In this document: positions 2,652 to 16,515 of the stretch, in pieces
How positions within the stretch are numbered: the stretch's first letter is position 1
Layout: every line of letters begins with the position of its first letter
Assembly (NCBI RefSeq): GCF_004348535.1
Contig: NZ_SMJX01000039.1
Coordinates: 1-40,773 of the forward strand
DNA: 40,773 nt
DNA from: Actinomadura sp. KC216
GTDB taxonomy: Bacteria > Actinomycetota > Actinomycetes > Streptosporangiales > Streptosporangiaceae
Direction of reading: 5' to 3'
Program-made: the position numbers and the translations under genes
Notes under the pieces: model-generated
What the model was told of the DNA's origin: nothing
What the model saw: the letters and a program-made list of their open reading frames with translations, nothing else
The model's database searches: none

Positions 2652-2676
2652 ATCTATAGAAAGTTGGAGAAGCGTG

Positions 2677-3741
2677 ATGAGCACTCCAGCCGAGCAGATC
2701 GTCCGACTCACCTCCCTCTCACCTGGCGCGGGGTGTGCGTGCAAACTTCCGCTGGCCTCGCTCGAGGAGCTCATCCGTGAGTTCGGGGAGTCGGTGCAGC
2801 CGGCCAACACGGACCTGCTCATCGGGATGGCGGAGGGCGACGACGCCGCGGTCCTGCGGCTCGACGACGACCGTGCCCTGATCCTGACGACCGACTTCTT
2901 CACGCCGATCGTCGACCGGGCCTACGACTGGGGACGCGTCGCCGCGGCGAACGCCCTCTCGGACGTCTACGCGATGGGCGGCCGCCCGCTCATCGCGCTG
3001 AACCTCGCGGCATGGCCCGGGGCGGACCTGCCGATCGAGCTGCTGGCCGAGGTGATGCAAGGGGCCGCCGCGGTCGCGAGCGAGGCCGGGTGCATGGTCG
3101 TCGGCGGTCACACCATCGACGACCCGGTGCCCAAGTACGGGATGGCGGTCGTGGGCATGGCCCACCCTGACCGGCTCTTCGCGATCGACAAGGCGATGCC
3201 CGGCGACGAGCTCGTCCTGACCAAGCCCCTGGGCACGGGAGTGATCGCCACGGCGCTCAAGCGGGGGGCGGCGGAGGAGGAGCAGGTGAAGGCGGCGGTC
3301 GATTCGATGACCACCCTCAACGCCTCGGCCTCGGAGGCGGCGCTCGCCGCGGGCGCCCGGGCCGCCACCGACGTCACCGGGTTCGGCTTACTCGGACACC
3401 TGCACAGGATGCTCCGGGCCAGCGGCGTCAGCGCCGAGATCCACGCGCGGGAAGTACCGCTGCTGCCCGGGGCGTTGGAGCTGGCCTCGGCGGGCTTCGT
3501 CTCGGGGGGAACGCGCGCCAACATCTCCTTCCTCGCCGACGCGGTTCACGTCGACGACGGCGTCAGCGAGGACCTGTCGGTGCTGTTGCACGACGCGCAG
3601 ACATCCGGCGGCCTGCTGATCGCTTGCCCCGGTCCCTCGGCCGGGCTTCTCGCGGACTTGCGTGAACGCGGGCTGCCCGCGGTCGCGGTGGGGCGGGTCA
3701 CCGAAGGCGCGGCGGGCGAAGTCGCGGTCGGGAACGGCTGA
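2677..3741 (+). CDS. selD: Selenophosphate synthetase SelD
   Basis: SelD makes selenophosphate from selenide and ATP, the activated selenium donor for SelA. The 354-residue protein has the full family layout. GAGCACK near the N-terminus contains catalytic Cys20 and Lys23 (GAGCGCK in E. coli). The glycine-rich and acidic ATP/metal elements DDAAV, TTDFFTPIVD, YDWGRVAAANALSDVYAMGG and GGHTID follow, and TDVTGFGLLGH and DAQTSGGLL mark the C-terminal domain. The active site uses Cys rather than Sec. ATG 2677 is preferred over the overlapping GTG 2674 because GGAG (2666-2669) is 7 nt upstream of ATG. selA follows after 9 nt, so the two form an operon that continues towards the tRNA. Confidence 0.96.
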   Translation: MSTPAEQIVRLTSLSPGAGCACKLPLASLEELIREFGESVQPANTDLLIGMAEGDDAAVLRLDDDRALILTTDFFTPIVDRAYDWGRVAAANALSDVYAMGGRPLIALNLAAWPGADLPIELLAEVMQGAAAVASEAGCMVVGGHTIDDPVPKYGMAVVGMAHPDRLFAIDKAMPGDELVLTKPLGTGVIATALKRGAAEEEQVKAAVDSMTTLNASASEAALAAGARAATDVTGFGLLGHLHRMLRASGVSAEIHAREVPLLPGALELASAGFVSGGTRANISFLADAVHVDDGVSEDLSVLLHDAQTSGGLLIACPGPSAGLLADLRERGLPAVAVGRVTEGAAGEVAVGNG

Positions 3742-3750
3742 GCATCGATC

Positions 3751-5133
3751 ATGAACACCGATCCCCGCCGGGCACTGCCGAAGATGGACGCCCTTCTCGC
3801 GCACCCGGACGTCTCGGCGCGCCGGAGGACGTGGGGCCACGACGCCGTCGCCGACACGGCCCGCAAGGTCCTCGCGAACGCGCGGTCGAACCTGAAGGGG
3901 GATCCGGCGCCCTCGCTGGACCAGCTCGCCGCCAACGTCTCGAAGGAGCTCGACGGTCTCGCGGCCGGGCGGCTTCGCGGCGTCATCAACGCCACCGGGG
4001 TCGTGCTCCACACCAACCTCGGACGCGCTCCTTTGTCCCGCGCCGCGCGCGAGGCGATCGAGGCGGCGGCGGGCTACTCGACCGTCGAGTTCGATCTCCG
4101 GACGGGGGGCCGGGGCAAGCGCGGGACCGCGGTCAACGCGCTGCTGCGCACGTTGACCGGCGCGCCTGCCGGGCTCGTTGTCAACAACGCCGCCGCCGCG
4201 CTGATGCTGACGCTGGGGGCGCTCGCCCGGGGCGGAGAGGTCGTCGTATCACGTGGGGAACTGGTCGAGATCGGAGGCGAGTTCCGGATACCGGCCATCA
4301 TGCAGGCGGCCGGAGTGGACCTCGTCGAGGTGGGCACCACGAACCGCACTCATCTCAGCGATTACGCCAACGCCATCACCGACCGCACGGCCCTGCTGCT
4401 GGTCGTTCACACCTCGAACTACCGGATCGAGGGGTTCACCGCGCGCCCCGGACTCGACGCGCTGGTGAGGCTCGCCCGGGAGCACTCGATACCGCTCGTC
4501 CATGACGTCGGGTCGGGCCTGGTCAGTGGCGCGCTCGGGGACGAGCCCACCGTGCTGGAGAGCCTGCGCGAAGACGCCGACCTGGTCATCTTCTCGGGCG
4601 ACAAGCTGCTCGGCGGTCCCCAGGCGGGCCTGGTGGTCGGCCGGGCGGAACTCGTGGGGCGGCTCGCGAGGCATCCGATCGCGCGCGCGGTGCGCATCGA
4701 CAAGCTGACGCTGGCCGCGCTCGAGGCCACGCTGATGACCCATCTCGCGGGCACCCTCGACGATCTCCCGGTGTGGCGGGCGTTGCGGTTGACCCCCGAG
4801 GAGATCCGCCCCCGGGCGGAGTCGCTCGCCCAGCGGCTGGGCGGGCCCGCCATCGTGCGAGAGGGAACCAGCATGGCCGGCGGGGGAAGCCTGCCCGGCG
4901 AGGGCCTCCCCAGCATTCTGGTGGAGATCGATCCGCGTCCGGCCCGCGAGAAGACGCTGCTGGAACGGCTGCGCGCCGCCGAGCCGCCGGTCATCGCCCG
5001 AATGGAAAAGGGCAGGGTGATCGTCGATTTGCGCACGGTTCCCGTGGAGCAGGACGAGGAGCTTTCGCGCATCATCCAGAATGCCCTGAAAGAGTCGTTG
5101 GAGTCCCTTCCCGAGAAACGAGATAAATGCTAA
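3751..5133 (+). CDS. selA: L-seryl-tRNA(Sec) selenium transferase SelA
   Basis: SelA is the PLP enzyme that converts Ser-tRNA(Sec) to Sec-tRNA(Sec) using selenophosphate. The 460-residue length is normal for the bacterial decameric enzyme. The N-terminal domain (LPKMDALLAHPDVSARR..., about 1-70), which in the family contacts the tRNA D-arm, is present. INATGVVLHTNLGRAPLS, the phosphate-binding LVVNNAAAALMLTL, and LVHDVGSGL follow. Lys285 in SGDKLLGGPQAG is the PLP Schiff-base lysine. Nothing suggests inactivation. The stop codon TAA (5131-5133) overlaps the likely -10 box of the tRNA gene that starts 21 nt later. Confidence 0.96.
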   Translation: MNTDPRRALPKMDALLAHPDVSARRRTWGHDAVADTARKVLANARSNLKGDPAPSLDQLAANVSKELDGLAAGRLRGVINATGVVLHTNLGRAPLSRAAREAIEAAAGYSTVEFDLRTGGRGKRGTAVNALLRTLTGAPAGLVVNNAAAALMLTLGALARGGEVVVSRGELVEIGGEFRIPAIMQAAGVDLVEVGTTNRTHLSDYANAITDRTALLLVVHTSNYRIEGFTARPGLDALVRLAREHSIPLVHDVGSGLVSGALGDEPTVLESLREDADLVIFSGDKLLGGPQAGLVVGRAELVGRLARHPIARAVRIDKLTLAALEATLMTHLAGTLDDLPVWRALRLTPEEIRPRAESLAQRLGGPAIVREGTSMAGGGSLPGEGLPSILVEIDPRPAREKTLLERLRAAEPPVIARMEKGRVIVDLRTVPVEQDEELSRIIQNALKESLESLPEKRDKC

Positions 5134-5136
5134 TAT
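5131..5136 (+). promoter_or_regulatory. Candidate -10 element of the tRNA gene
   Basis: TAATAT at the end of selA stands out in a very GC-rich region. It lies 17 nt before the first base of the tRNA, which would leave a leader of about 10 nt. No convincing -35 is seen (TTCCCG at 5108-5113 is the best spaced). Confidence 0.4.
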
Positions 5137-5153
5137 GAATATGTAAGTCACCT

Positions 5154-5246
5154 GGAGGTGTTGAGTTCCTGGTGGGCTCTCTGTGATTGCGAGATCGCAG
5201 AAGGCGCATAGCGCCTGGCGGGTTCGATTCCCGGCCGCCTCCGCCA
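5154..5246 (+). tRNA. Selenocysteine-type tRNA lacking a UCA anticodon; anticodon arm closed by a tetraloop
   Basis: The 93-nt gene has Sec-tRNA hallmarks: 5' GGAGG pairing with 3' CCTCC, G73 and an encoded CCA (5244-5246). It also has a 6-bp D-stem (5163-5168 with 5174-5179) around CTGGT, a long variable arm (AGGCGC/GCGCCT, loop ATA, 5202-5216) and the T-loop TTCGATT (5223-5229). TCA does not occur anywhere in the 93 nt. The anticodon arm pairs 5181-5188 with 5193-5200 (8 bp including two G-U pairs), leaving GCGA (5189-5192), a GNRA tetraloop. A 5- or 6-bp stem with an 8- to 10-nt loop is the alternative; its best U33-type reading would be GCG. The acceptor/T junction is also odd: U5161 faces C5235 and G5218 faces G5234. 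Host SerRS and SelA should not need the anticodon. It sits between selA and a MetRS paralogue. It could also be a decayed selC. Confidence 0.85.
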
Positions 5247-7064
5247 ATGTCGATCGTTGCCGACAAGGAAGAAGTGGCCTTGCGTTCTTCTGACCTCCAC
5301 GGAACGCTCAGATACGCGGTGTCGTTATGGCCGCAGTCCTGGTCGGCGGCGACCCCACGGGAGCCGGGTGTCGGAGAGCTCTACGCAGGCCTGTTCGCCG
5401 ATGTCATCGCCGGTTATCAGCGTCTCCTCGGCCATGATTCCAGCGCGTCGACCGTCGTTCCCGGCGATGAGGCACCGGTCTATGAGCACATTTCGTCGCC
5501 GCTGGGGCTCGCCGTCGACCGGGGAGGCGCCGGACGGTCCCTCGGGGAGGATCCGCGATGGCGGGGCTGCAGGGAGAACGGCGATCTGTACATCGGCGAG
5601 TACGACGGATGGTACTGCGAAGAATGCGGCCTGTTCTATGAACACCATGAGGTCTACGACGGTCCCAGCTGCCGTGTGCACCGGCGATCGCTTTCGCGGA
5701 TAAAGGCCGACTGCTGGCTCTTTCGTCTCTCCCGGTATCAGGAGAGACTGTCCGACCTTTACGACGAGTTCGAACGGCGGTGCGGTCGGCCATTCGTCAC
5801 GTCGGCCGGCCGGTTGGAGGATATCCGCAAGCGGCTCGCTTCGGGAGTACGGGACGTCCCCATCGAAGCCGTCCCCCGGAGCGCGGATCCGGCCGGTGAA
5901 AGCAGCTCCGCAAGGCGTTGTGAGCCCATCCTGGCGCTGGCGGGTTCACCCCGGGCGCCGGAGGTCACGTACGTTGTCACCGCTGATCGCGTCTGGCACT
6001 GCGCCGCCGTCTGGCCCGCGCTGCTCATGGCCGCCGGTGAGCGGCCACCGGCGGGCGTCGTCGCGTGCGGGCCCTCAGACGGGCTACCGCGCGGCGATGT
6101 ACCCGCGTGGACGAGCCTGCCGCCTCAAGTGATCGCACAGGAAATCGGAGCAGAGGAACTGCGGTACCTGCTGCTGCGGGCGCCCGCCCTCGCCGTGAAC
6201 GGCGTCTGCTCGGCCGAAGCGCTCCTCGACTGCTACGACGACGAGCTGGCCAGGGGCATCGGGAACCTCGCGGCCCGTGCCATCGCCCTGGCCGCGGGAC
6301 CCGGAGGCGCGGGGGCGGTCCCGCGGCCGGAGATGGTCGAATTCCCCTTCGACGCACGGCTTCCCGAACCTCATCAAGGCGCGCTCCGGCCGGAGTCCCT
6401 GCTGGGGGAGATCGCCTCATTGGTGAAGGCGGGCAACGCCTTCATGGACGAGCGCCGTCCCTGGGAGTCGGAGGGGGACGAGCGCATGTGGGTCCTCTGG
6501 CACGTACTCGAACTCTGCCGCGTCGCCGGGCATCTCCTCAGCCCGGTGCTCCCCGCACGGTCACGTCGGCTCCTGGACCTGATCGGGGCGGCCGGCCAGC
6601 CGCGCTGGCCCCGTTGGGGCGGCCACGACGGGGAGTTCCATGTGCGCGGCGAGTCCGAGCCGCTGTTCCCAGGTATCCCTGGCCGGCGACGGCGGAGGCT
6701 GCTGGAGGACTGGTCCCTGCGCGGGCCGCGACGCCCCGAGATCACGGGGGAGGACTTCGGCCGGCTCGACCTCCGCGTCGCGAGAATCGCCGAGGCCGAG
6801 ACCGTCGAAGGCAACGGTGGGCCGGTCCTGAGAATCAGGCTCGACCTGGGCGACACCCCGACGACCGTCTTCAGCACCAAACTGCTACCGGCGTTCGAGT
6901 CCGGGGCCCTGATCGGGCGGATGGTGGTCTACCTGGCGAACCTCGAAGAGGTCGAGATCGCGGGGTTCACATCGAAGGGAATGGTCCTGACGGCGACGGA
7001 CGCGCGAGGCGAAGCACTGCTCACATTCGACCGCGTGCACGAGCCTGGAACGGTGATGTTCTGA
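5247..7064 (+). CDS. Degenerate methionyl-tRNA synthetase paralogue with C-terminal tRNA-binding domain
   Basis: The 605-residue protein aligns with MetRS from end to end but lacks its catalysis motifs. Where MetRS has PHIGH..Y..I.ADV.ARY.RL, this has P-GVGE-LYAGLFADVIAGYQRL (40-60), so both HIGH histidines are gone. The KMSKS loop is replaced by AWTSLPPQ (287-294). The knuckle is kept (GWYCEEC at 121-127, then C142-X2-H145), as is LFRLSRYQERL. The anticodon domain keeps Asn340, Arg344 (GNLAAR) and PW (405-406), the positions that read the Met anticodon in E. coli MetRS. Residues about 503-605 are a Trbp111/EMAPII-type OB-fold. It probably binds RNA without aminoacylating. ATG 5247 touches the tRNA CCA end with no Shine-Dalgarno site. 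TTG 5280 behind AAGGAAG (5265-5271) is an alternative start. Confidence 0.82.
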   Translation: MSIVADKEEVALRSSDLHGTLRYAVSLWPQSWSAATPREPGVGELYAGLFADVIAGYQRLLGHDSSASTVVPGDEAPVYEHISSPLGLAVDRGGAGRSLGEDPRWRGCRENGDLYIGEYDGWYCEECGLFYEHHEVYDGPSCRVHRRSLSRIKADCWLFRLSRYQERLSDLYDEFERRCGRPFVTSAGRLEDIRKRLASGVRDVPIEAVPRSADPAGESSSARRCEPILALAGSPRAPEVTYVVTADRVWHCAAVWPALLMAAGERPPAGVVACGPSDGLPRGDVPAWTSLPPQVIAQEIGAEELRYLLLRAPALAVNGVCSAEALLDCYDDELARGIGNLAARAIALAAGPGGAGAVPRPEMVEFPFDARLPEPHQGALRPESLLGEIASLVKAGNAFMDERRPWESEGDERMWVLWHVLELCRVAGHLLSPVLPARSRRLLDLIGAAGQPRWPRWGGHDGEFHVRGESEPLFPGIPGRRRRRLLEDWSLRGPRRPEITGEDFGRLDLRVARIAEAETVEGNGGPVLRIRLDLGDTPTTVFSTKLLPAFESGALIGRMVVYLANLEEVEIAGFTSKGMVLTATDARGEALLTFDRVHEPGTVMF

Positions 7065-7423
7065 TGTCGCACCCGGCCCCGGCCTCCGCCAAGCCCGACA
7101 TCACTTACGAGACGTTCTCAGAAATCGAGCTGCGCACCGCCGACGTCATAGGCGCCGAGTATTTCAGGGGAAAACCCAACCTGATCCTGCTCTCCGTCGA
7201 CCTCGGGTACGAGCAGACGCAGATGATCGTCGGGAAGGGGCTCCCGGACCTTTACGAGCCCGCCGACATCATCGGCCGGCAGGTGATCTGGATGGCCAAT
7301 CTGAAACCGAAGAAGATCATGGGAGGCATGTCCAAGGGGATGATCGTCGCGGTAGGTGACAACCGGGTCGACGGCTTGGTCGTTCCCGAGCGCCGCGCCG
7401 ATCCGGGGGCCCGCGTTCAATGA
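7064..7423 (+). CDS. Stand-alone tRNA-binding OB-fold protein (Trbp111/CsaA/MetRS-beta type)
   Basis: The 119-residue protein is a single tRNA-binding domain. It starts with YETFSEIELRTADVIGAEYF (the usual 'F.kvDlRVg.I..aE' strand), continues with GYEQTQMIVGKGL and IIGRQVIWMANLKPKKIMGGMSKGMIVA, and closes with VVPERRADPGARV. These match the Trbp111/CsaA and MetRS C-terminal families, which dimerise and bind the outer corner of tRNA without sequence reading. ATG 7064 overlaps the previous stop (ATGA), so the two are translationally coupled. A MetRS-like body with its own tRNA-binding domain plus this free copy next to a tRNA gene suggests a ribonucleoprotein around that tRNA; this is inference. 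Confidence 0.85.
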   Translation: MSHPAPASAKPDITYETFSEIELRTADVIGAEYFRGKPNLILLSVDLGYEQTQMIVGKGLPDLYEPADIIGRQVIWMANLKPKKIMGGMSKGMIVAVGDNRVDGLVVPERRADPGARVQ

Positions 7424-7485: not shown

Positions 7486-7836
7486 ATGAAGGTGCTGTTC
7501 GTCTTTCACGATTCACCGTACGGAACAGAACGTACCTACAACGGGCTGCGCTGGGCGAAACAGCTCGCTGAGCGTGAGGACACCGAGGCTCGGATCTACC
7601 TCTTCGGTGATGCCGTCATAGCGGCTGCCGCCGAACAGAGAACCCCTACCGGTTCCCACAACATCGGCAAGATGGTCGACCAGTTCGCCTCACTGGGCGG
7701 CGAGGTCGGAAGCTGCAAGACCTGCCTCAACGCCCGCGGGATCATGAGCGAGCGGCTCCGGGATTCCACCCGCCTCGCCTCGGTGGCGGATCTCGGCGAA
7801 TGGACGGTCTGGGCGGACAAAGTCATCAACGTGTGA
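7486..7836 (+). CDS. DsrE/YchN-family sulfur (or selenium) relay protein
   Basis: The 116-residue protein opens with MKVLFVFHDSPYGTERTYNGLRWA and YLFGDAV, the beta-alpha start and nucleotide-like loop of the DsrE/DsrF fold. GSCKTCLNARG carries the cysteine pair at the site where DsrE-like proteins hold persulfide. DsrE-type domains occur in selenium-linked proteins such as YedF beside selD, which fits this neighbourhood. ATG 7486 is chosen because a purine-rich AGGCGGAAAC precedes it and it gives the normal family start; an overlapping ATG at 7420 would add a non-homologous 22-residue leader. It may pass S or Se between carriers in the cytoplasm. Confidence 0.8.
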   Translation: MKVLFVFHDSPYGTERTYNGLRWAKQLAEREDTEARIYLFGDAVIAAAAEQRTPTGSHNIGKMVDQFASLGGEVGSCKTCLNARGIMSERLRDSTRLASVADLGEWTVWADKVINV

Positions 7837-7842
7837 CCCTGG

Positions 7843-8505
7843 ATGCGGGCGATGGAGGATCTGGCGCGCAAGGCCGCGCTGTACGAGCAGTTCGCCCGGG
7901 TGGGCAAGGCGCTGGCGAGCCCCGTACGCCTGGAGCTCCTGGACCTGCTCGCCCAGACCGAGCGCAGCGTGGAAGAACTGGCCGGCGCGGCGGGCATGAA
8001 GATCAGCAACACCTCCGCCCAGCTGAAGCTCATGGCGTCGGCGGGCCTGCTCACGGCCCGGCGCTCCGGTACCCGGGTCTACTACCGGCTCGCGGACGAG
8101 CAGGTGATCAGCCTGATGAACCAGGTGAAGGAGTTCGCCGGCGCCAGGATCGCCGAGGTGGAGCAGGCCGCGCGCGAGTACCTGGGTGACATCGCCGCCC
8201 TGGAACCGATGGCCTGCGACGAGCTGGCCAGGCAACTGGCCGGAGGCGATGTCGTCGTGCTGGACGTCCGCCCCGAACCCGAGTACGCGGCGGGGCACAT
8301 CCCCGGTGCGATCAGCGTCCCCCACGACCAGCTGGCCGCGAGGCTGGCCGACCTGCCGGTCGGCACGGAGATCGTCGCGTACTGCCGGGGCCGCTATTGC
8401 GTTCTCGCGCCGGACGCCGTCCGGACGCTGCGCGATCACGGATACGCCGCTCGCGTGCTGGACGGCGGGCTGCCCGAGTGGCGGCGGTCGCAGGCCCTGA
8501 CGTAG
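7843..8505 (+). CDS. ArsR-type HTH regulator fused to a rhodanese domain (copy 1)
   Basis: The 220-residue fusion has an ArsR winged helix at about 12-95 (GKALASPVRLELLDLLAQTERSVEELA, ISNTSAQLKLM, wing RRSGTRVYYRL). A rhodanese domain follows at about 122-215 (VVLDVRPEPEYAAGHIPGAISVP). The active-site loop is YCRGRYC with catalytic-position Cys181 and a second Cys186. The family is known as persulfide/sulfur-responsive or redox repressors; with selD and selA nearby it could sense a selenium or sulfur species on the rhodanese Cys. It lies 6 nt after the DsrE gene, so it belongs to the selD-to-here operon. A paralogue sits at 16545-17204. ATG 7843 is used; ATG 7852 is also possible. Confidence 0.88.
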   Translation: MRAMEDLARKAALYEQFARVGKALASPVRLELLDLLAQTERSVEELAGAAGMKISNTSAQLKLMASAGLLTARRSGTRVYYRLADEQVISLMNQVKEFAGARIAEVEQAAREYLGDIAALEPMACDELARQLAGGDVVVLDVRPEPEYAAGHIPGAISVPHDQLAARLADLPVGTEIVAYCRGRYCVLAPDAVRTLRDHGYAARVLDGGLPEWRRSQALT

Positions 8506-8576: not shown

Positions 8577-9476
8577 TCAGACGCCCAGGCCGAATCTCTC
8601 GGCGTATCGGCGGATCTCGTCATAGTCGGACGGGCTCACCTTGGCATAGCTCTTCGCACGCAGCAGATCGAGCAGTGCGGGGTCGTCGATCCTGGTGAAG
8701 GCTCCGGTGATCTCCTGAATCGCCCGGGACCCGACCTCGGTCCGGACGACCCAGGGGTATCCGGTGACCCGGCGAGTCTCGATCGCCCGGAGCGCGCCCT
8801 TGGGGACCGATCCCTCTCCTTCGAGGCGATGGAGAATCCGGAGCTCGATTCCGCCGGCCTCCGTGGCACCGGTGAGGACCGACTGGGCCACCGCGTCATG
8901 TCCGCCCGTGAAGCTGACCTTCGACAGGGGCGGGCACGAGGCGGGGTCCCGCGAGTCGGCTTTCACGCCCGCGTCGGCCAGCATTGCGCGGGGATACAGG
9001 CTGCCGGACGTCGAGCTGATATCGCCGAAGGCGAAGGACGCCTTCGCCGCGACCAGGTCCGCGGTGGTCCGGTAGGCGGAGCCGCTCTTCACGACGACCG
9101 CGGAGAGGTATTCACGTGTTCCCGTTTCCCGGTCGATCTCGGTGACGACCGGTGTGAGCTTCACCTTGCGTTCGGCCTGGACGTAGGTCAGACCGCCGAG
9201 ATAGGCCAGGTCAAGGCGATCGGAGGCCAGTGCCTCCACCACTCCGGAATAGTCCGTGGCGACGAACAACTCGATTTCGGCATCGAGTTCGCGCTCCAGG
9301 TATGCCTGGAGCGGCTTGTAGCGCGCACGCTGCTTGTCAGGTGCGATGTTGGGTATGAGGCCGACCCGCAGCTTCTTCGGCACGCCCTTCTCGTTGACCG
9401 AAGCGCCGCCGGCCGAGCAGGCGACGAGAACGAGCAGAGATACCACGGCGGCAAGCGTGGCTAAGACGCGTTTCAT
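8577..9476 (-). CDS. PhnD-like oxyanion-binding lipoprotein of an ABC importer
   Basis: The 299-residue protein has a lipoprotein signal (MKRVLATLAAVVSLLVLVAC, lipobox ending at Cys20). A PhnD-type periplasmic-binding fold follows: LRVGLIPNIAPDKQRARYKPLQAYLEREL, then ATDYSGVVEALASDRLDLAYLGGLTYVQAE, FAFGDISSTSGSLYPRAML, and FTGGHDAVAQSVLTGATEAGG. PhnD relatives bind phosphonate, phosphite or other oxyanions, and a selenium-linked clade occurs beside selD in other bacteria. Uptake of selenate or selenite is therefore a fair guess here. It is transcribed away from the matching ATPase and permease genes (10080-11773) across a 603-nt regulatory gap. The start ATG 9476 gives a normal signal peptide. 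Confidence 0.85.
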   Translation of the reverse strand: MKRVLATLAAVVSLLVLVACSAGGASVNEKGVPKKLRVGLIPNIAPDKQRARYKPLQAYLERELDAEIELFVATDYSGVVEALASDRLDLAYLGGLTYVQAERKVKLTPVVTEIDRETGTREYLSAVVVKSGSAYRTTADLVAAKASFAFGDISSTSGSLYPRAMLADAGVKADSRDPASCPPLSKVSFTGGHDAVAQSVLTGATEAGGIELRILHRLEGEGSVPKGALRAIETRRVTGYPWVVRTEVGSRAIQEITGAFTRIDDPALLDLLRAKSYAKVSPSDYDEIRRYAERFGLGV

Positions 9477-10079: not shown

Positions 10080-10829
10080 GTGCGCCTCGAACTGACGAAC
10101 GTGACCGTGGAGCTCGGCACGCAGCGCCTGCGCGTGCTCGACGACTTATGCCTCGACGTCGGAGAGGGCGAGAGGGTCGCGTTGCTCGGCCCCTCCGGCG
10201 TCGGCAAGAGCACCTTGCTGCGGCTCATCGTCGGAGCACCGGCCGTCGCCCCCCGCACGGGCGCGGTCCGCGTCGACGGTGTCGACCCGTTCGGGCCCGA
10301 GCGCGAAGCCAACGTCGTCCGGCGGCAGACGGGGTTCGTCCGGCAGAGGGACGACCTGGTGCTCGGGCTCAGCGGCCGGACCAACGCCCTGATGGCGACC
10401 ACACCCGGCTGGAAGGCGGGGGACTGGCTCTCGGTGTTGCGGGGCAGAGCACCCCGTGACCTCGAAGCCGCGCTCACCGACCTCGCTCGCCACTACGGGA
10501 TCGAATCGCGCTTGAACGCCCGGGTCGAGGACCTCTCCGGAGGCCAGCGGCAGCGCGTCGCACTGGTGCGGGCGCTGCTTCCGCGTCCACGGCTGCTGCT
10601 TGCGGACGAGCCCACCTCCGGGCTGGACCCGGGGAACACCGACGTCGTCATGAGCGCGCTGCTGCGCCCCGGCGGCCCGACCCTCGTCCTCGCCACTCAC
10701 GACCTCGCGGTGGCGCGGAGACTTCCCCGGATCGTCGCGCTGCGGGACGGCCACATCGTCCATGACGGATCGCCTCCGGACGACGAGTCCTTGGCGCGCA
10801 TCTACGACCTCGAAGCCGAGGTGGGATGA
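10080..10829 (+). CDS. PhnC-like ABC transporter ATPase
   Basis: The 249-residue protein is a complete ABC ATPase: Walker A GPSGVGKST (37-45), Q-loop region TGFVRQRDDLVLGLSGRTNALM, signature LSGGQRQR (152-159), Walker B RLLLADEPTSGLD (171-183) and the H-loop THD. The VLGLSGRTNAL segment after the Q-loop and the general layout are like PhnC, the ATPase of phosphonate-type importers. It starts at GTG 10080. The permease gene follows after 80 nt, and the binding protein gene is divergent at 8577-9476. It would power uptake of the island's oxyanion, possibly selenate or selenite; this is inferred from context. Confidence 0.88.
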   Translation: MRLELTNVTVELGTQRLRVLDDLCLDVGEGERVALLGPSGVGKSTLLRLIVGAPAVAPRTGAVRVDGVDPFGPEREANVVRRQTGFVRQRDDLVLGLSGRTNALMATTPGWKAGDWLSVLRGRAPRDLEAALTDLARHYGIESRLNARVEDLSGGQRQRVALVRALLPRPRLLLADEPTSGLDPGNTDVVMSALLRPGGPTLVLATHDLAVARRLPRIVALRDGHIVHDGSPPDDESLARIYDLEAEVG

Positions 10830-10909: not shown

Positions 10910-11773
10910 GTGCCGAAGAGACAAGACACAGAGGCCAGCCGGGTACGCCGGATTCCAGCCGCTGAACCTCTGGCTCCTTCCCCGCCACCGCCGCGTACCC
11001 GGCATCGGCGGTTCCGCTGGTGGGCCGGGCTTCTCACCGTGGTCGCCGTCGTCTGGTCCCTGCGAGGCACCGACGTCGGTCTCGGGTCGCTCGTGCAAGG
11101 GCGGGAGGGCGCCGCCCGGCTCCTGACCGGCCTCGTTCCGCCCGACCTCAGCGAGCCCATGCTCAGGATGGTGGCCCAGGCCGCCTTCGAGACCCTGCAG
11201 ATATCGATCGCCGCGCTCTTCCTCGGCGCCCTGATGGGGCTGCCGCTCGCCGTCCTCATCGCCGGCAATGTTCGCGGCCCTCGCTGGCTCTCCTCGTCCG
11301 CGAGGGTCACCGCGGCGTTTCTCAGAGGGGTTCCCGAACTCCTCTGGGCGCTCCTGTTCGTCGCGACCGTCGGCCTCGGCCCGGCGGCCGGCGTCTACGC
11401 CGTCTCCCTCCACGCCGCCGGTCTCCTCGCGAAGCTCTGCTCGGAGCAACTGGAGGCCGTCGACCCGGCCCCGGTGGAGGCGATGAGACTGACCGGGGCC
11501 TCCCGGCACGCGACCATGCTGCTGGCCATCCTCCCTCAGGCCCGCAACGGGATCGTTTCGATCCTGCTCTACCAGTGGGAGTGCAATATACGCAGCTCGG
11601 CGATCATCGGTTTCGTCGGTGCCGGTGGCATCGGGCAGGCGCTCGGGATCTCATTGCGATTGTTCCGGTACGAAGAGCTCGCCACGCTGCTGGTGGCCGT
11701 GCTCATCCTGATTCTCGGTGTGGACCGCATTTCCCGTGGACTCCGCAGCCGCATGGGTGCGGCGACACGCTAG
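10910..11773 (+). CDS. PhnE-like ABC transporter permease
   Basis: The 287-residue membrane protein has a charged, proline-rich N-terminal tail (about 1-38) and then about six hydrophobic helices. The permease contact loop is visible as EAMRLTGASRHATMLLAILPQARNGIVSILLYQWECNIRSSAIIGFVGAGGIG, which is the EAA-type motif and exit segment of the PhnE family. The start is GTG 10910 with CAGGGA upstream. It lies 80 nt after the ATPase and 16 nt before the FeS subunit gene, so importer and oxidoreductase appear to share an operon. It is the membrane channel of the PhnCDE-like importer. Confidence 0.87.
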   Translation: MPKRQDTEASRVRRIPAAEPLAPSPPPPRTRHRRFRWWAGLLTVVAVVWSLRGTDVGLGSLVQGREGAARLLTGLVPPDLSEPMLRMVAQAAFETLQISIAALFLGALMGLPLAVLIAGNVRGPRWLSSSARVTAAFLRGVPELLWALLFVATVGLGPAAGVYAVSLHAAGLLAKLCSEQLEAVDPAPVEAMRLTGASRHATMLLAILPQARNGIVSILLYQWECNIRSSAIIGFVGAGGIGQALGISLRLFRYEELATLLVAVLILILGVDRISRGLRSRMGAATR

Positions 11774-11789: not shown

Positions 11790-12401
11790 ATGGCACGTTT
11801 GGGAATGCTCATCGATCTCAATACCTGTATCGGCTGCCACGCCTGCTCCGTAGCCTGCAAGGCGGAATTCGACGTTCCCCTGGGCAGCTTCCGGGACACG
11901 GTCAAGTACGTGGAGGACGGCGCCTACCCGAATGCCACCAGGCATTTCATTCCGGTCCTCTGCAATCACTGCGAGGACGCGCCCTGCCTCAACGCCTGCC
12001 CGACGGGTGCCGTCGTGCGGCTGGACGACGGTGAGATCACCATCGACGAAGGCGACTGCAATCTCAACCGCTTCTGCATGTCCGCCTGCCCCTATGGCGC
12101 GATCTACGTTGACGAGGACAAGAGCGCCGCCCAAAAATGCACCTTCTGTCAGCACCGGACGGAGGAGGGAAGGCAACCGGCATGCGTGGACGCCTGCCCC
12201 ACTGGTTGCCGGATCTTCGGGGATCTCGACGATCCCGACAGCAAGATCGCCAAAAAGGCGGCCCGGAGTGAGACCCGGTCCTGGAAGGAGGAGAAAGGTA
12301 CGCGGCCGCGCGTGCTCTATATCGATCCACGCGGAGCCCTCGACCTGATCGCGGACGAAGGCGTTCAGGTGGACACGTCCGGCGAGATGAGCGGTGACTA
12401 G
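11790..12401 (+). CDS. Four-cluster ferredoxin-type subunit of a molybdenum oxidoreductase (PsrB/SrdB/DmsB-like)
   Basis: The 203-residue electron-transfer subunit carries four cysteine groups: C13-C16-C19-C23, C58-C61-C66-C70, C90-C96-C100, and C117-C120-C132-C136. In the third group the usual second Cys is Asn93 (CNLNRFCMSACP), so one cluster has lost a cysteine ligand and may be 3Fe-4S or Asn-ligated. AAGGAGG precedes ATG 11790. The order FeS subunit, NrfD anchor, catalytic subunit is the same as srdBCA, the selenate reductase operon of Bacillus selenatarsenatis, and is also seen in polysulfide reductases. It would pass electrons between the membrane quinone pool and the catalytic subunit. 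Confidence 0.9.
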   Translation: MARLGMLIDLNTCIGCHACSVACKAEFDVPLGSFRDTVKYVEDGAYPNATRHFIPVLCNHCEDAPCLNACPTGAVVRLDDGEITIDEGDCNLNRFCMSACPYGAIYVDEDKSAAQKCTFCQHRTEEGRQPACVDACPTGCRIFGDLDDPDSKIAKKAARSETRSWKEEKGTRPRVLYIDPRGALDLIADEGVQVDTSGEMSGD

Positions 12402-12403
12402 CG

Positions 12404-13312
12404 ATGGCCTTCTCGGCCGCGAACGGCCATCCGCTCCCAGAACCGCCCTGGGGCGTTCTCCTCGCCGTCTACTTCGTCATGGTCGGCATCCCGAGTGGGA
12501 TCACGCTCTACGCCTGGTGGATCAACGTCCAGGGCGCAGCGGTCGCCGCGCCCGTCGAGCGCTATGGCTCGTGGGCCGCGCTCGGCATCCTCGCCGCCGC
12601 GAGCCTGTTGCTGGTCATGGACCTGGGGCGCCCGAGCCGCTTCTACCTCACGCTCACTCGCTTCGACAATCTCGGCTCTCCGATATCCGTCGGTGCGAAG
12701 CTCATAACGATCAAGATGGTGCTGCTGGCCATCGCCGTCTATGCCGTCGAACAGCGAAGACGTCGGCCCGAGCCTTCTGAAGGCCAGGTGCCGTCCCGCT
12801 TCGGTACGTGGTGCATGAAGGCGGTGCCCTACCTGCTCCTGGCCACGAGCTTCGCGCTCGCGATCTATCCGGTGTCCGTGCTGTCACGATCGTGGGCGTC
12901 CCCGCTGGCGCACACCAGCGGGGCGGCGCTCATCTTCCTTCTCACCGCGCTCCTGATGGGCGCGGCCGTCGTGATGCTGCTCTCGTCCCTCTTCCCGCCG
13001 GCGCCCGGCACCCGGGCCGACCGCCGATTCTGGAGGCGCGATCCGCTGGTCCTGCTCGGCTTCTACTGCGCGGCCCTGCTCTTCGAGGGCCTGTCCCTGC
13101 ACGGTGACCCCCCGAACCGCAGGCTGCTGGCCGAACTCCTGACAGGCGGCCTCGCGCCCGCGTTCTGGGGACTCGTGGTCTTCGTGGGCATCGCCGTCCC
13201 CGCGGCCGGCACCGCGCTCCGCTCCCGGCGCGCGGCCTGCTTCGTGGCCGGCACGGCGCTGCTCGTCGGCACCGCCGCGGCCCGCTACCTGGTCTTCGCG
13301 GCGGGGAGGTGA
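12404..13312 (+). CDS. NrfD/PsrC-type membrane anchor subunit
   Basis: The 302-residue integral membrane protein has about eight hydrophobic helices, starting with WGVLLAVYFVMVGIPSGITLYAW and later LGRPSRFYLTLTRFDNLGSPISVGAKLI, which matches the NrfD/PsrC 'LgRP.R......SpiS.Ga' pattern. This family exchanges electrons with menaquinone or ubiquinone for a DMSO-reductase-type enzyme. It begins 2 nt after the FeS subunit stop. Its own stop lies in the Shine-Dalgarno region of the catalytic subunit, so the three are tightly coupled. Confidence 0.9.
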   Translation: MAFSAANGHPLPEPPWGVLLAVYFVMVGIPSGITLYAWWINVQGAAVAAPVERYGSWAALGILAAASLLLVMDLGRPSRFYLTLTRFDNLGSPISVGAKLITIKMVLLAIAVYAVEQRRRRPEPSEGQVPSRFGTWCMKAVPYLLLATSFALAIYPVSVLSRSWASPLAHTSGAALIFLLTALLMGAAVVMLLSSLFPPAPGTRADRRFWRRDPLVLLGFYCAALLFEGLSLHGDPPNRRLLAELLTGGLAPAFWGLVVFVGIAVPAAGTALRSRRAACFVAGTALLVGTAAARYLVFAAGR

Positions 13313-13317
13313 ACCCC

Positions 13318-15870
13318 ATGCCCGATCCGTCCTCTCCCGATCCGGCGCAGGGCTGGACCCCGACCCGTCGCGACGTGCTGCGCGCGGGGCTCGTTCTGGG
13401 CGCCGCCACCAGCGGATTGGCGACGATCGACGTCATCGACCGGATGCGGGAGCGGCCCGCCGCGACCGGCACCCTCGCTGCGGGGGTGCGGCGCATCCCG
13501 TCGATGTGCCAGATGTGCACCACCGCCTGCGGGATCATCGCCAACGTGCGCGATGGGAGGCTCCTGACCATCGAAGGCAACCCGGAGGACCCCAACAGCC
13601 AGGGCTCCGTGTGCGCGAAAGGAGTGGCCGGTCCGTCCGTGCTCTATGACCCCTATCGCCTTCTCTATCCGCTCCGCCGGGTCGGCAGGCGAGGGGAAGG
13701 GCGATGGCGGCGCATCACCTGGGACGAGGCGTACACGGAGATCGCGTCGCATCTGCGTGCGATCCGGGAGAGCGGGCGCCCGGAAGAGTTCGCCTTCCAG
13801 CAGGGGCGCAACCGGTCCAAGGACGTCGTGCGCCGGTTCCTCAACGCCTTCGGCACGCCCTCCCATTTCACGCATCGGGCTCTGTGCTCCCTGAACCGCC
13901 GCGCCGCCATCCTGGCGACGATCGGAGAGTCCGACTGGGACCTCGGTGACTACGAGCACAGCCGCTACATCCTGAACTTCGGCTGCAACTGGGCCGAAGC
14001 CCACCAGGGCCATATTCCGGTCGCCATTCGGATGATGCGCGCCCGCGAGAACAACGCCGCCAAGATCGTGACGTTCGACGCGCGCCTGTCGAACACGGCC
14101 GCGCTGTCCGACGAGTGGTTCTGCATCAAGCCCGGGACCGACGGGCTGGTCGCCCTGGCCATGTCGAACGTGATCTGCAGCGAGGGCCTGTGGAACAAGT
14201 CATGGTTCGACACCTGGTGCAACTATCCGGCCGACGACTATGCCGAACACCTTCGCCCCTACACTCCCGAGATGGCCGCCCAGGAGAGCGGCATTCCCGC
14301 CGAGGTCATCCGCCGACTCGCACGGGAGTTCGCCGAGGCGGCGCCCCGCTGCACGACGATCTGCAACCGCGGATCCCATGCTCACCGCAATGGCTTCTAC
14401 AACGACCGGGCCATCACACTGCTGAACGCCCTGGTGGGAAACATGGGACAGGTCGGCGGATGGTGCTGGCATCCGAAAGCCGAGTGGGATGACGACCAGT
14501 TTCCCGAACCCGGACCGGTTCCACCGAAGCCCACGGCGCGAAGCGTCATCGCCGAGGCCAAGGACTGGCCCCTCGCCAACGCATGGCAGGGCAGGGAGAT
14601 GAAGGTCAGCCAGATCGTCTACCAGTGGATCAAGGAGCGGAGGCAGCGGGTCTCCGCGCTCATGACCTACAACTGCGATCAGGCGTGGGCGTGGCCGGAG
14701 GCGCGGCTGGTCCGCGAGGTGCTGACCGACGAGAACCTGATCCCGTTCCACGTGTGCGTGGACGTGATGTACTCCGAGACGGCGCATCTCGCCGACATCG
14801 TCCTTCCCTGGACCACCTACCTGGAGCGATGGGACATCGATGCCAGGCCGCCCCAAGGACTCGTGGACTATGTGGGGCTCCGCCAGCCGGTGGTGAAGCC
14901 GCTGGGCGAGTCGAAGGACATTCGCGAGATTTTCCCGGCCCTCGCTCACCGGATCGGTGGCGGCATGGAGCGCTACTTCCCATGGCGCACCGCCGAGGAG
15001 TACTTCGCCGAGTACTTCCGGCCCGTCCCCGGCGGGGGCCTCGGCTACATGCGCCGGCATGGCGCGTGGCAGGACCCCGCGAAGAAGCCGCGCTACAAGC
15101 CGTACGAGCGGCGGCTGACCGCCGCCGAGCTCAAGGGCGCCGAGACCGACCCCGAAACCGGGATCATCTACAAGGGGACCGACCCGAAGACCGGACGGCG
15201 TCTGGGCATCGGAATCATGATCGACGGCGTCCCCAGGCACGGCTTCGAGACACCGTCCCGGAAGGTCGAAGTTCGTAGCGAGTTCGTCGCCGACAAGGGG
15301 AGGGCGGTCGACAGGACCGTCGATCCGCTCCCGGTCTACGACCCCATTCCCAGCCACCGAGCCGGCCTGGGCGATGACCGGCTGATAATGATCAGCTTCA
15401 AATGGAACGTCCACAACGCGCACCGCACCGGCCAGTCGAAGTGGCTTCAGGAAATCGTCCACACCAATCCCGCGTGGATCAACAGGGCCACCGCCGAGCG
15501 GCTCGGCCTGGCGGAGGGCGACTGGATCGAAGTGACGAGCTTCCGCCCGAATGACCCGATGGTCCCCAACGGCGACGGCTCGGTGCTCGGGTCACTGCGC
15601 ACGCGTGTGCATATCACCGAAGGAGTGCACCCTTCGGTGATCGCCATCTCACATAACTTCGGCCGGCAGTATGGTGGCCCGATCGCCACGAACGGACGGG
15701 ATCAGGCCCGAAACCCCGGGTACGGGCAATCAGCGGATGGCGATGCGGAAAACTGTTGGTGGGCGGGAACTCTCAGCGTCCCCCAGAACGACATCATGCC
15801 GATCTACCCTGACCCAGTATCGGGTCAGCAGGCTTACCATGACACGGTCGTGCGAGTTCGCAAGGCGTAA
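13318..15870 (+). CDS. Tat-exported molybdopterin oxidoreductase catalytic subunit (PsrA/SrdA-like)
   Basis: The 850-residue protein belongs to the DMSO-reductase superfamily. It starts with a twin-arginine signal (TRRDVLRAGLVLGAA, 16-30), so it works outside the membrane. A [4Fe-4S] motif follows (C64-X2-C67-X3-C71, C99), then molybdopterin segments (LNFGCNWAEAHQGH, GNMGQVGGWCW, MYSETAHLADIVLPWTTYLER) and the C-terminal MolyDop-binding domain (NPAWINRATAERLGLAEGDWIEV). Cys190 in THRALCSLNRR sits where formate dehydrogenases carry Sec/Cys and where polysulfide-type enzymes use Cys as Mo ligand; its codon is TGC (13885-13887). ATG 13318 is chosen because GGGGAGG is 8 nt upstream; GTG 13309 overlaps that site. 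The substrate could be selenate, polysulfide, thiosulfate or a related oxyanion. Confidence 0.92.
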   Translation: MPDPSSPDPAQGWTPTRRDVLRAGLVLGAATSGLATIDVIDRMRERPAATGTLAAGVRRIPSMCQMCTTACGIIANVRDGRLLTIEGNPEDPNSQGSVCAKGVAGPSVLYDPYRLLYPLRRVGRRGEGRWRRITWDEAYTEIASHLRAIRESGRPEEFAFQQGRNRSKDVVRRFLNAFGTPSHFTHRALCSLNRRAAILATIGESDWDLGDYEHSRYILNFGCNWAEAHQGHIPVAIRMMRARENNAAKIVTFDARLSNTAALSDEWFCIKPGTDGLVALAMSNVICSEGLWNKSWFDTWCNYPADDYAEHLRPYTPEMAAQESGIPAEVIRRLAREFAEAAPRCTTICNRGSHAHRNGFYNDRAITLLNALVGNMGQVGGWCWHPKAEWDDDQFPEPGPVPPKPTARSVIAEAKDWPLANAWQGREMKVSQIVYQWIKERRQRVSALMTYNCDQAWAWPEARLVREVLTDENLIPFHVCVDVMYSETAHLADIVLPWTTYLERWDIDARPPQGLVDYVGLRQPVVKPLGESKDIREIFPALAHRIGGGMERYFPWRTAEEYFAEYFRPVPGGGLGYMRRHGAWQDPAKKPRYKPYERRLTAAELKGAETDPETGIIYKGTDPKTGRRLGIGIMIDGVPRHGFETPSRKVEVRSEFVADKGRAVDRTVDPLPVYDPIPSHRAGLGDDRLIMISFKWNVHNAHRTGQSKWLQEIVHTNPAWINRATAERLGLAEGDWIEVTSFRPNDPMVPNGDGSVLGSLRTRVHITEGVHPSVIAISHNFGRQYGGPIATNGRDQARNPGYGQSADGDAENCWWAGTLSVPQNDIMPIYPDPVSGQQAYHDTVVRVRKA

Positions 15871-15882
15871 TGGAGACATGAG

Positions 15883-16515
15883 ATGAGCGGCTTCGACGAT
15901 GCCGACCTGGGGGCCGCGCGCAACCTCTACGCTTTGGCATCCCGGCTGTTCGCCGCAGAGATCGACCAGCCCCTGTATCGCGGTCTGCTCGCCGCGGGCG
16001 AGGACCCGCGCCTCCGGCCGATGGGATTCGTCCTCATTGAACCGAGCCTCAGGGCGATGGGGGAGGAACGGGCGATGCTCGAACTGTCGGTGGAGTACTG
16101 CCGGCTGTTCATCGGTCCACGCCCCGCCTGCCCGCCCTACGGATCACTGCGGCGCAATGAGGCCATGGTCGGAGGGCGCGCCGAGCGGGGGATCAACCAG
16201 TTCATGCTTCGGCACGGGCTGTCCGTCCGGGTACCGGCCGCAACGCCCATGATCGCGAACGACCATCTGGCGGTGGGCCTGGCCCTGCTCTCCTACCTCC
16301 ACCACATTCAATCTGCCGAGGCGACGGACCCAGACGGCGCCGCCAGGGCGAGAGACGCCGCAGAGGAGTTGTTGACCCGGCATCTGCTTCCATGGGTACC
16401 GGACTATCTCGCCGAGCTTCAGGCCAAGGCGCTTCTGGCCCCCTACAGCTCGGTCGCGCAGGTGACGGAGTTCTGCCTGCGCACCGAGGAATCGGCACTT
16501 CGTCCGTCGGGATGA
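15883..16515 (+). CDS. TorD/DmsD-family assembly chaperone
   Basis: The 210-residue helical protein resembles TorD-type chaperones, which bind the Tat signal of a molybdoenzyme and hold it until the cofactor is inserted. Recognisable parts are ARNLYALASRLFAAEIDQPLYRGLL, the core MLELSVEYCRLFIGPRPACPPYGSLRR (family 'Y..LF.gP...ppyeS'), and NDHLAVGLALLSYLHHI. It starts 12 nt after the catalytic subunit stop with GGAGACATGAG before ATG. It ends convergent with the second ArsR-rhodanese gene. Its client is almost certainly the protein at 13318-15870. Confidence 0.86.
   Translation: MSGFDDADLGAARNLYALASRLFAAEIDQPLYRGLLAAGEDPRLRPMGFVLIEPSLRAMGEERAMLELSVEYCRLFIGPRPACPPYGSLRRNEAMVGGRAERGINQFMLRHGLSVRVPAATPMIANDHLAVGLALLSYLHHIQSAEATDPDGAARARDAAEELLTRHLLPWVPDYLAELQAKALLAPYSSVAQVTEFCLRTEESALRPSG

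Follow-up and report, generated by a model that had tools for sequence, protein, structure and literature searches.

An anticodon-less tRNA-Sec-like RNA adjoining selA in Actinomadura sp. KC216: a possible carrier of selenocysteine outside translation

The selenocysteine tRNA (tRNA-Sec) is the scaffold on which selenocysteine (Sec) is made for the decoding of UGA. It is read by SerRS and SelA via its acceptor, variable arm and D-arm (PMC7609411). Recoded tRNA-Sec are already known in general; according to two papers citing Mukai et al. 2016, they depart from UCA but still decode, and come with selB (PMC10778597, PMC5330540). The stretch of DNA analysed here (the window, 40,773 nt) contains a tRNA-Sec-like RNA which shares this departure from UCA; however, it has no anticodon, and there is no selB at the locus, so that an anticodon fitting a selenoprotein codon together with selB was not found. 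The selC* tRNA-Cys and CysRS* pair (PMC7609411) likewise combines a tRNA-Sec-like RNA with an extra aminoacyl-tRNA-synthetase relative. CysRS* is nevertheless active and its tRNA carries UCA, whereas the synthetase relative of the window, here called pMetRS, has lost the catalytic motifs; no active paralogue of CysRS stands beside a selB* here, the partner gene being MetRS-like and devoid of HIGH and KMSKS. tmRNA (PMC2481249) offers another charged tRNA-like RNA without an anticodon, but the window RNA has neither an mRNA part nor an Rfam tmRNA match, and its fold is of the Sec type and not the Ala type. Peptide tailoring by TglB with Cys-tRNA (PMC9016710) would be comparable as use of a tRNA-borne amino acid off the ribosome; it relies on ordinary tRNA-Cys and another enzyme, and a ligase of that kind was not recognised among the genes of the window. 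Finally, bacterial tRNA-Sec (selC, RF01852) has in common with the window RNA the acceptor end, G73, the 6-bp D-stem with its 4-nt loop, the long variable arm and the adjoining selA, and differs from it in that the window RNA lacks an anticodon loop, carries a 9-bp stem closed by GCGA, has a shorter T-stem and scores below the cut-off. No description of an anticodon-less tRNA-Sec was found in the literature among the matches listed.

The RNA gene lies on the + strand at 5154-5246 (93 nt), with G73 at 5243 and an encoded CCA at 5244-5246, as read directly from the sequence. The selA stop is at 5133, the RNA gene begins 20 nt further, and the next ATG abuts its CCA. The Rfam tRNA-Sec model aligns over its full length to 5154-5242 with 43.9 bits (E 6.6e-7), less than the gathering score of 47, so the tRNA-Sec cut-off is not reached. 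ARAGORN called no tRNA over the window, and tRNA-Sec was the sole Rfam match at 4000-6500, with no tmRNA. RNAfold predicts a 7-bp acceptor, a 6-bp D-stem, a 9-bp stem, a 6-bp variable arm and a 4-bp T-stem at -47.2 kcal/mol (z -3.28; 0 of 200 shuffles were as good). The D-arm (5163-5179, + strand) has one bulged U in its 6-bp stem and a UGGU loop of 4 nt; a bulge of like kind is predicted in tRNA-Sec loci L001 and L130. The variable arm (5202-5216, + strand) consists of 6 bp and an AUA loop. An earlier note made from the letters alone had described the 6-bp D-stem, long variable arm, G73 and CCA of a gene just 3' of selA, and had named the elements that SerRS and SelA use to recognise tRNA-Sec; reading and folding bear out the former, and the latter are present in the predicted fold.

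The arm at the anticodon position (5180-5201, + strand) is where the RNA departs from its class. Pairing tests and RNAfold agree on pairs of 5180-5188 with 5193-5201 that leave over GCGA; the closure by GCGA is thus as the earlier note had it, and the stem, given there as 5181-5188 with 5193-5200, is one pair longer. The absence of TCA from the whole 93 nt, also noted earlier, was verified by direct reading, and neither UCA nor any other anticodon is presented in a 7-nt loop, the ordinary loop which RNAfold gives for the genome's other tRNA-Sec and for those of two relatives. Since it has no anticodon, the RNA would decode no codon. The acceptor and T-stem form 7 + 4 clear pairs, compared with the 8 + 5 of tRNA-Sec. 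By RNAfold, position 8 is unpaired in the window RNA and in L089 alike, and the 3' side of the T-stem base is G, where 35 of 35 compared tRNA-Sec genes have U, so that the pair reads G-G.

Upstream, in one run with the RNA gene, lie selD1 (2674-3741, + strand; selenide water dikinase, TIGR00476, 381 bits) and selA1 (3751-5133, + strand; L-seryl-tRNA(Sec) selenium transferase, TIGR00474, 508 bits). Downstream, pMetRS (5247-7064, + strand, start codon inferred) is a MetRS-derived protein of 605 aa with a C-terminal tRNA_bind domain, and is followed by a free-standing, Trbp111-like tRNA_bind protein of 119 aa (7064-7423, + strand; PF01588, 61.9 bits), for which the nearest solved chains are the MetRS beta subunit and Trbp111. 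pMetRS is similar to MetRS in its zinc-knuckle insert, in its helical domain and, at the C-terminus, in its tRNA_bind domain (PF01588); neither the HIGH nor the KMSKS motif is present. Its predicted model, built with 35 sequences (pLDDT 85; a 3-sequence model with pLDDT 35 was discarded), has the MetRS fold, with a Foldseek match to 2x1l at E 4.9e-25. The N, R and W of the helical domain that contact the anticodon in MetRS are retained in pMetRS as N335, R339 and W401; their retention may be structural. The N-terminal half has a GC3 of 0.74-0.77, somewhat below the 0.85 of the remainder, and the public gene call (P0033, 311 aa) begins at an internal codon of the 605-aa frame. The pMetRS ATG at 5247 stands immediately 3' of the encoded CCA, and a pMetRS message from which the RNA had been processed would therefore be leaderless.

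The pMetRS homologues found are P0001, P0002 and the C-terminal piece P0034, at 44-55% identity. P0002, encoded on a contig of 8,082 bp, is without HIGH and KMSKS; P0001 is without KMSKS and does not extend to the HIGH region. No pMetRS was detected in 296 other genomes of the order (single-protein search, E 1e-30), 297 of the family (profile, 1e-40) or 393 of the class (profile, 1e-60), three samples that overlap, nor was there a match in plasmids and phages. A scan of genome contigs with pMetRS yielded eight MetRS-like loci of Saccharibacteria at 22-25% identity. Three genomes of f23 whose SelA is 62-65% identical have selB after selA, and their MetRS-like matches are ordinary only.

Further downstream follow genes for a DsrE-family protein of 116 aa with a CKTC motif (7486-7836, + strand; PF02635), which is 48% identical to a DsrE of the cluster in the relative G695, and, by domain matches, an ArsR-type regulator fused to rhodanese (7843-8505, + strand). 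A PhnD-like substrate-binding protein (8577-9476, - strand) matches TIGR04553, a putative selenate transporter model, with 137 bits, below its cut-off of 250, and is 53-59% identical to the substrate-binding proteins of the relatives' clusters. It is followed by an ABC ATPase (10080-10829), 54-59% identical to those of the relatives' clusters, and a permease (10910-11773), both on the + strand and assigned by domain matches. Whether the iron-sulfur, NrfD, molybdopterin oxidoreductase and TorD-like chaperone genes at 11790-16515 (+ strand) belong to the system is uncertain; judged by sequence, they possibly encode a selenium or sulfur oxyanion reductase. Models for thiosulfate reductase and for DMSO/selenate reductase matched the large subunit, with scores short of the cut-offs.

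When 340 further genomes from the family were searched, seven proved to encode a SelA close to SelA1 (E 1e-150 or better), and in all seven the cluster has selD, selA, selB and a recoded tRNA-Sec. The anticodon is ACA in G050 (Nonomuraea polychroma, SelA P0045), G147, G136, G029, G092 and G100, and AUA in G695; all seven tRNA genes score above the Rfam cut-off (66.8-71 bits). Because every one of them has ACA or AUA, the lineage of this selD-selA pair had already left UGA. The selD of this second operon is 62-70% identical to selD1. A UCA tRNA-Sec was additionally found by whole-genome search in six of the seven genomes, while G136 yielded the ACA gene only; this genome may lack a tRNA-Sec for UGA, or its draft assembly does not include the copy. 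The gene order is selD-selA-selB-tRNA on a single strand in G050 and G695; in G147, G136, G029, G092 and G100, selB and the tRNA are on the opposite strand. Behind them lie five conserved genes, X1-X5, including DUF6073, ABC1 kinase-like and acyl-CoA dehydrogenase-like genes. Loci reaching far enough also contain the substrate-binding protein and ABC transporter, which are common to the window. Where the relatives have selB, the window has pMetRS with the free tRNA_bind protein, DsrE and ArsR-rhodanese, and then this common transporter.

The original use of the relatives' operon can be read from eight genes compared across the seven genomes (2352 aligned codons; X5 is partial in G029 and G092). 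A single column tracks the anticodon, the PIKD-X site of DUF6073, where each of the six ACA genomes has the codon TGT and the AUA genome has TAT. This provides good evidence, at the level of a prediction, for insertion of Sec by the cluster at the UGU or UAU codon of DUF6073. Just 3' of the site, CCTCGGTTCGAGG occurs in all seven genomes; a hairpin is possible there, and the predicted outer pairs differ. The DUF6073 (PF19550) genes are those of loci L129, L130, L131, L132, L134, L135 and L136, and no mention of DUF6073 was found in the literature searched.

The source genome (G000) possesses other selenocysteine genes. The normal UCA selC that the earlier note had suggested looking for is present on contig C653, scoring 73.5 bits, with selD and fdhD close by. 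A second, very different selA, on a long branch in the SelA tree, is located on C163 beside a formate dehydrogenase gene. Two SelB-like genes were found, a piece of canonical type at the start of contig C125 and another on C241. The genome's own UCA tRNA-Sec would free the window RNA from decoding, and the separate Sec set makes Sec decoding independent of it, within what can be shown by a draft assembly that has 667 contigs and 5.2% contamination. The C241 gene (L067:3662-5386) is sister to the relatives' selB2 (99/99). Among 33 distinct SelB N-termini it alone lacks GHVDHGKS, the RGxT switch and DVPGH, all three of which are present in the other 32, and it scores 163.5 bits against a SelB cut-off of 242.25. 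It adjoins an RtcB-family gene and is not near the window. We infer that, if it is a displaced partner of the window system, it may also be disabled for work on the ribosome.

We give about an even chance to the proposal that the RNA at 5154-5246 is a non-decoding derivative of tRNA-Sec, a dedicated carrier for the conversion of serine to selenocysteine that is used off the ribosome. After recoding to a sense anticodon, selB and the selenoprotein gene would have left the locus, and pMetRS, with the active-site motifs lost but with the anticodon-domain helices, zinc knuckle and tRNA_bind domain kept, would have become the receiver of Sec-tRNA. The RNA would be serylated by SerRS, and the serylated RNA converted by SelA1 using selenophosphate from SelD1. 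The missing anticodon and missing selB would keep the charged RNA off the ribosome, and pMetRS and the free tRNA_bind protein would bind it and hand on Sec or selenium, for which DsrE could perhaps be an acceptor. A tRNA-Sec with the features for synthesis but no anticodon would separate the making of Sec from decoding in nature, and would point to aminoacyl-tRNA-fed selenium chemistry outside translation. It would also complete a testable series within one bacterial family, which starts at UCA, passes through ACA or AUA with a selenoprotein codon to match, and ends without any anticodon. More tentatively, and with considerable doubt, one could hypothesise a Sec pathway detached from the ribosome as a whole, comprising a non-decoding tRNA, a dead MetRS acting as Sec-tRNA binder and the C241 SelB without GTPase motifs; if this were true, three parts of translation would have been disarmed together, and Sec-tRNA would be a metabolic selenium donor.

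The same genes could be the relic of a second Sec operon that lost selB and its selenoprotein, with a drifting tRNA and with selA and selD as young, undecayed remnants. The recoded relatives show what the operon was originally for, one T-stem pair of the window RNA is lost, and selB2 and X1-X5, including DUF6073, gave no tblastn match in the 40.8-kb window at E 0.01. Moreover, a search for other tRNA genes with this arm, as advised in the earlier note, provided no second case: all 35 compared tRNA-Sec genes have an anticodon loop (28 UCA, 6 ACA and 1 AUA). These were drawn from searches near selA and from whole-genome tRNA-Sec searches of 6 and 27 genomes, leaving out L002, L004, L093 and L124 (tRNA-Ser by ARAGORN), repeat loci and weaker Rfam matches. 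Near selA, Rfam found one tRNA-Sec, with UCA, in 12 loci of the phylum and none within 1.5 kb in 7 loci of the family; in the whole-genome search, G309 had no match and G338 only tRNA-Ser.

Against such a relic stands the arm itself, which agrees with the arms of two relatives at no more than 6 of 20 positions in one case and 8 of 20 in the other, and hence is much changed, with pairing nonetheless kept. All nine positions were paired in 155 of 500,000 shuffles of the 22-nt arm, and 3 of 200 dinucleotide shuffles folded as well by energy. When neutral decay was simulated from the two relatives' arms by random substitution and a two-base insertion, full pairing arose in 0.0001 to 0.0004 of trials, which makes random decay, held in the earlier note to be the main alternative, improbable and simple decay of the RNA unlikely. 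The D-arm and variable arm also differ in sequence from those of other tRNA-Sec while their pairing is kept. SelA1 departs from 8 of 184 invariant columns (relatives, 0-9) and SelD1 from 14 of 184 (relatives, 0-15), the SelA1 columns being those invariant among ten relatives without the partial G695 row. Comparison of selA1 with G050 gives a dN of about 0.26 and a dS of about 0.97 (dN/dS about 0.25). Both proteins look functional and under purifying selection as far as sequence comparison goes. Finally, an independent contig appears to carry SelA together with pMetRS: P0001 (a pMetRS homologue, 46%) and P0038 (SelA, 72%) are both on jgi metagenome contigs of 30,655 bp, and this identical length indicates that they are probably on one contig. 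The SelA tree did not join the window SelA with P0038, and neither supports nor opposes a selB-less common descent. On balance, we regard the relic as unlikely.

The synthesis of E. coli threonyl-tRNA synthetase is controlled by the enzyme itself via a tRNA-like leader. By analogy, the tRNA-like fold could be the leader of the pMetRS mRNA, a translational operator through which pMetRS binding would control its own synthesis, and the RNA-binding domains of pMetRS and the lack of any gap between the CCA and its ATG would be in keeping with this. However, the G73-CCA end, the Sec-type D-arm and the adjoining selA would all be needless for an operator, which makes it decidedly unlikely. Nothing resembling a promoter or a terminator was found at 4900-5400, a result that also counts against it but tells little.

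It is very unlikely that the RNA is instead an odd decoder, whose arm would open to leave a stem of 5 bp with the 10-nt loop ATTGCGAGAT and read some codon with a SelB. The relatives are predicted to decode sense codons by recoded tRNA-Sec, the genome has two SelB-like genes, and DUF6073 was sought in the window and part of the genome only, all of which leave room for a decoder. Yet the 9-bp hairpin alone folds at -10.1 kcal/mol, the SelB nearest to the relatives' selB2, that of C241, lacks the GTPase motifs, and a tRNA anticodon loop has 7 nt (PMC7609411). Direct charging of the RNA with an amino acid by pMetRS, in the manner of CysRS* on selC* tRNA-Cys, would fit the shared outline, in which the gene for a tRNA-Sec-like RNA is accompanied by an additional synthetase gene (PMC7609411), but is highly improbable given that HIGH and KMSKS are missing from both pMetRS and P0002, and that P0001 is without KMSKS and the HIGH region.

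Artefacts of sequencing and assembly were also considered. No single error explains an arm that matches the relatives' arms at 6-8 of 20 positions, and a sequencing or assembly error was therefore ruled out. The tetranucleotide composition of the right half of the window correlates with that of the genome at r 0.94, and that of the window overall at 0.956. The values for 2.6-17 kb, 0.83-0.86, are under those of pieces of like size and indicate a slightly foreign composition. Although contamination of the assembly is 5.2%, these compositions make a contaminant contig less likely, and an island at 2.6-17 kb within a native contig likelier.

Among the genomes with ordinary tRNA-Sec, G321 has two UCA genes (L091 and L092) on the same contig, separated by about 9 kb; their Rfam scores are 74.7 and 58 bits, so that one is much the weaker.
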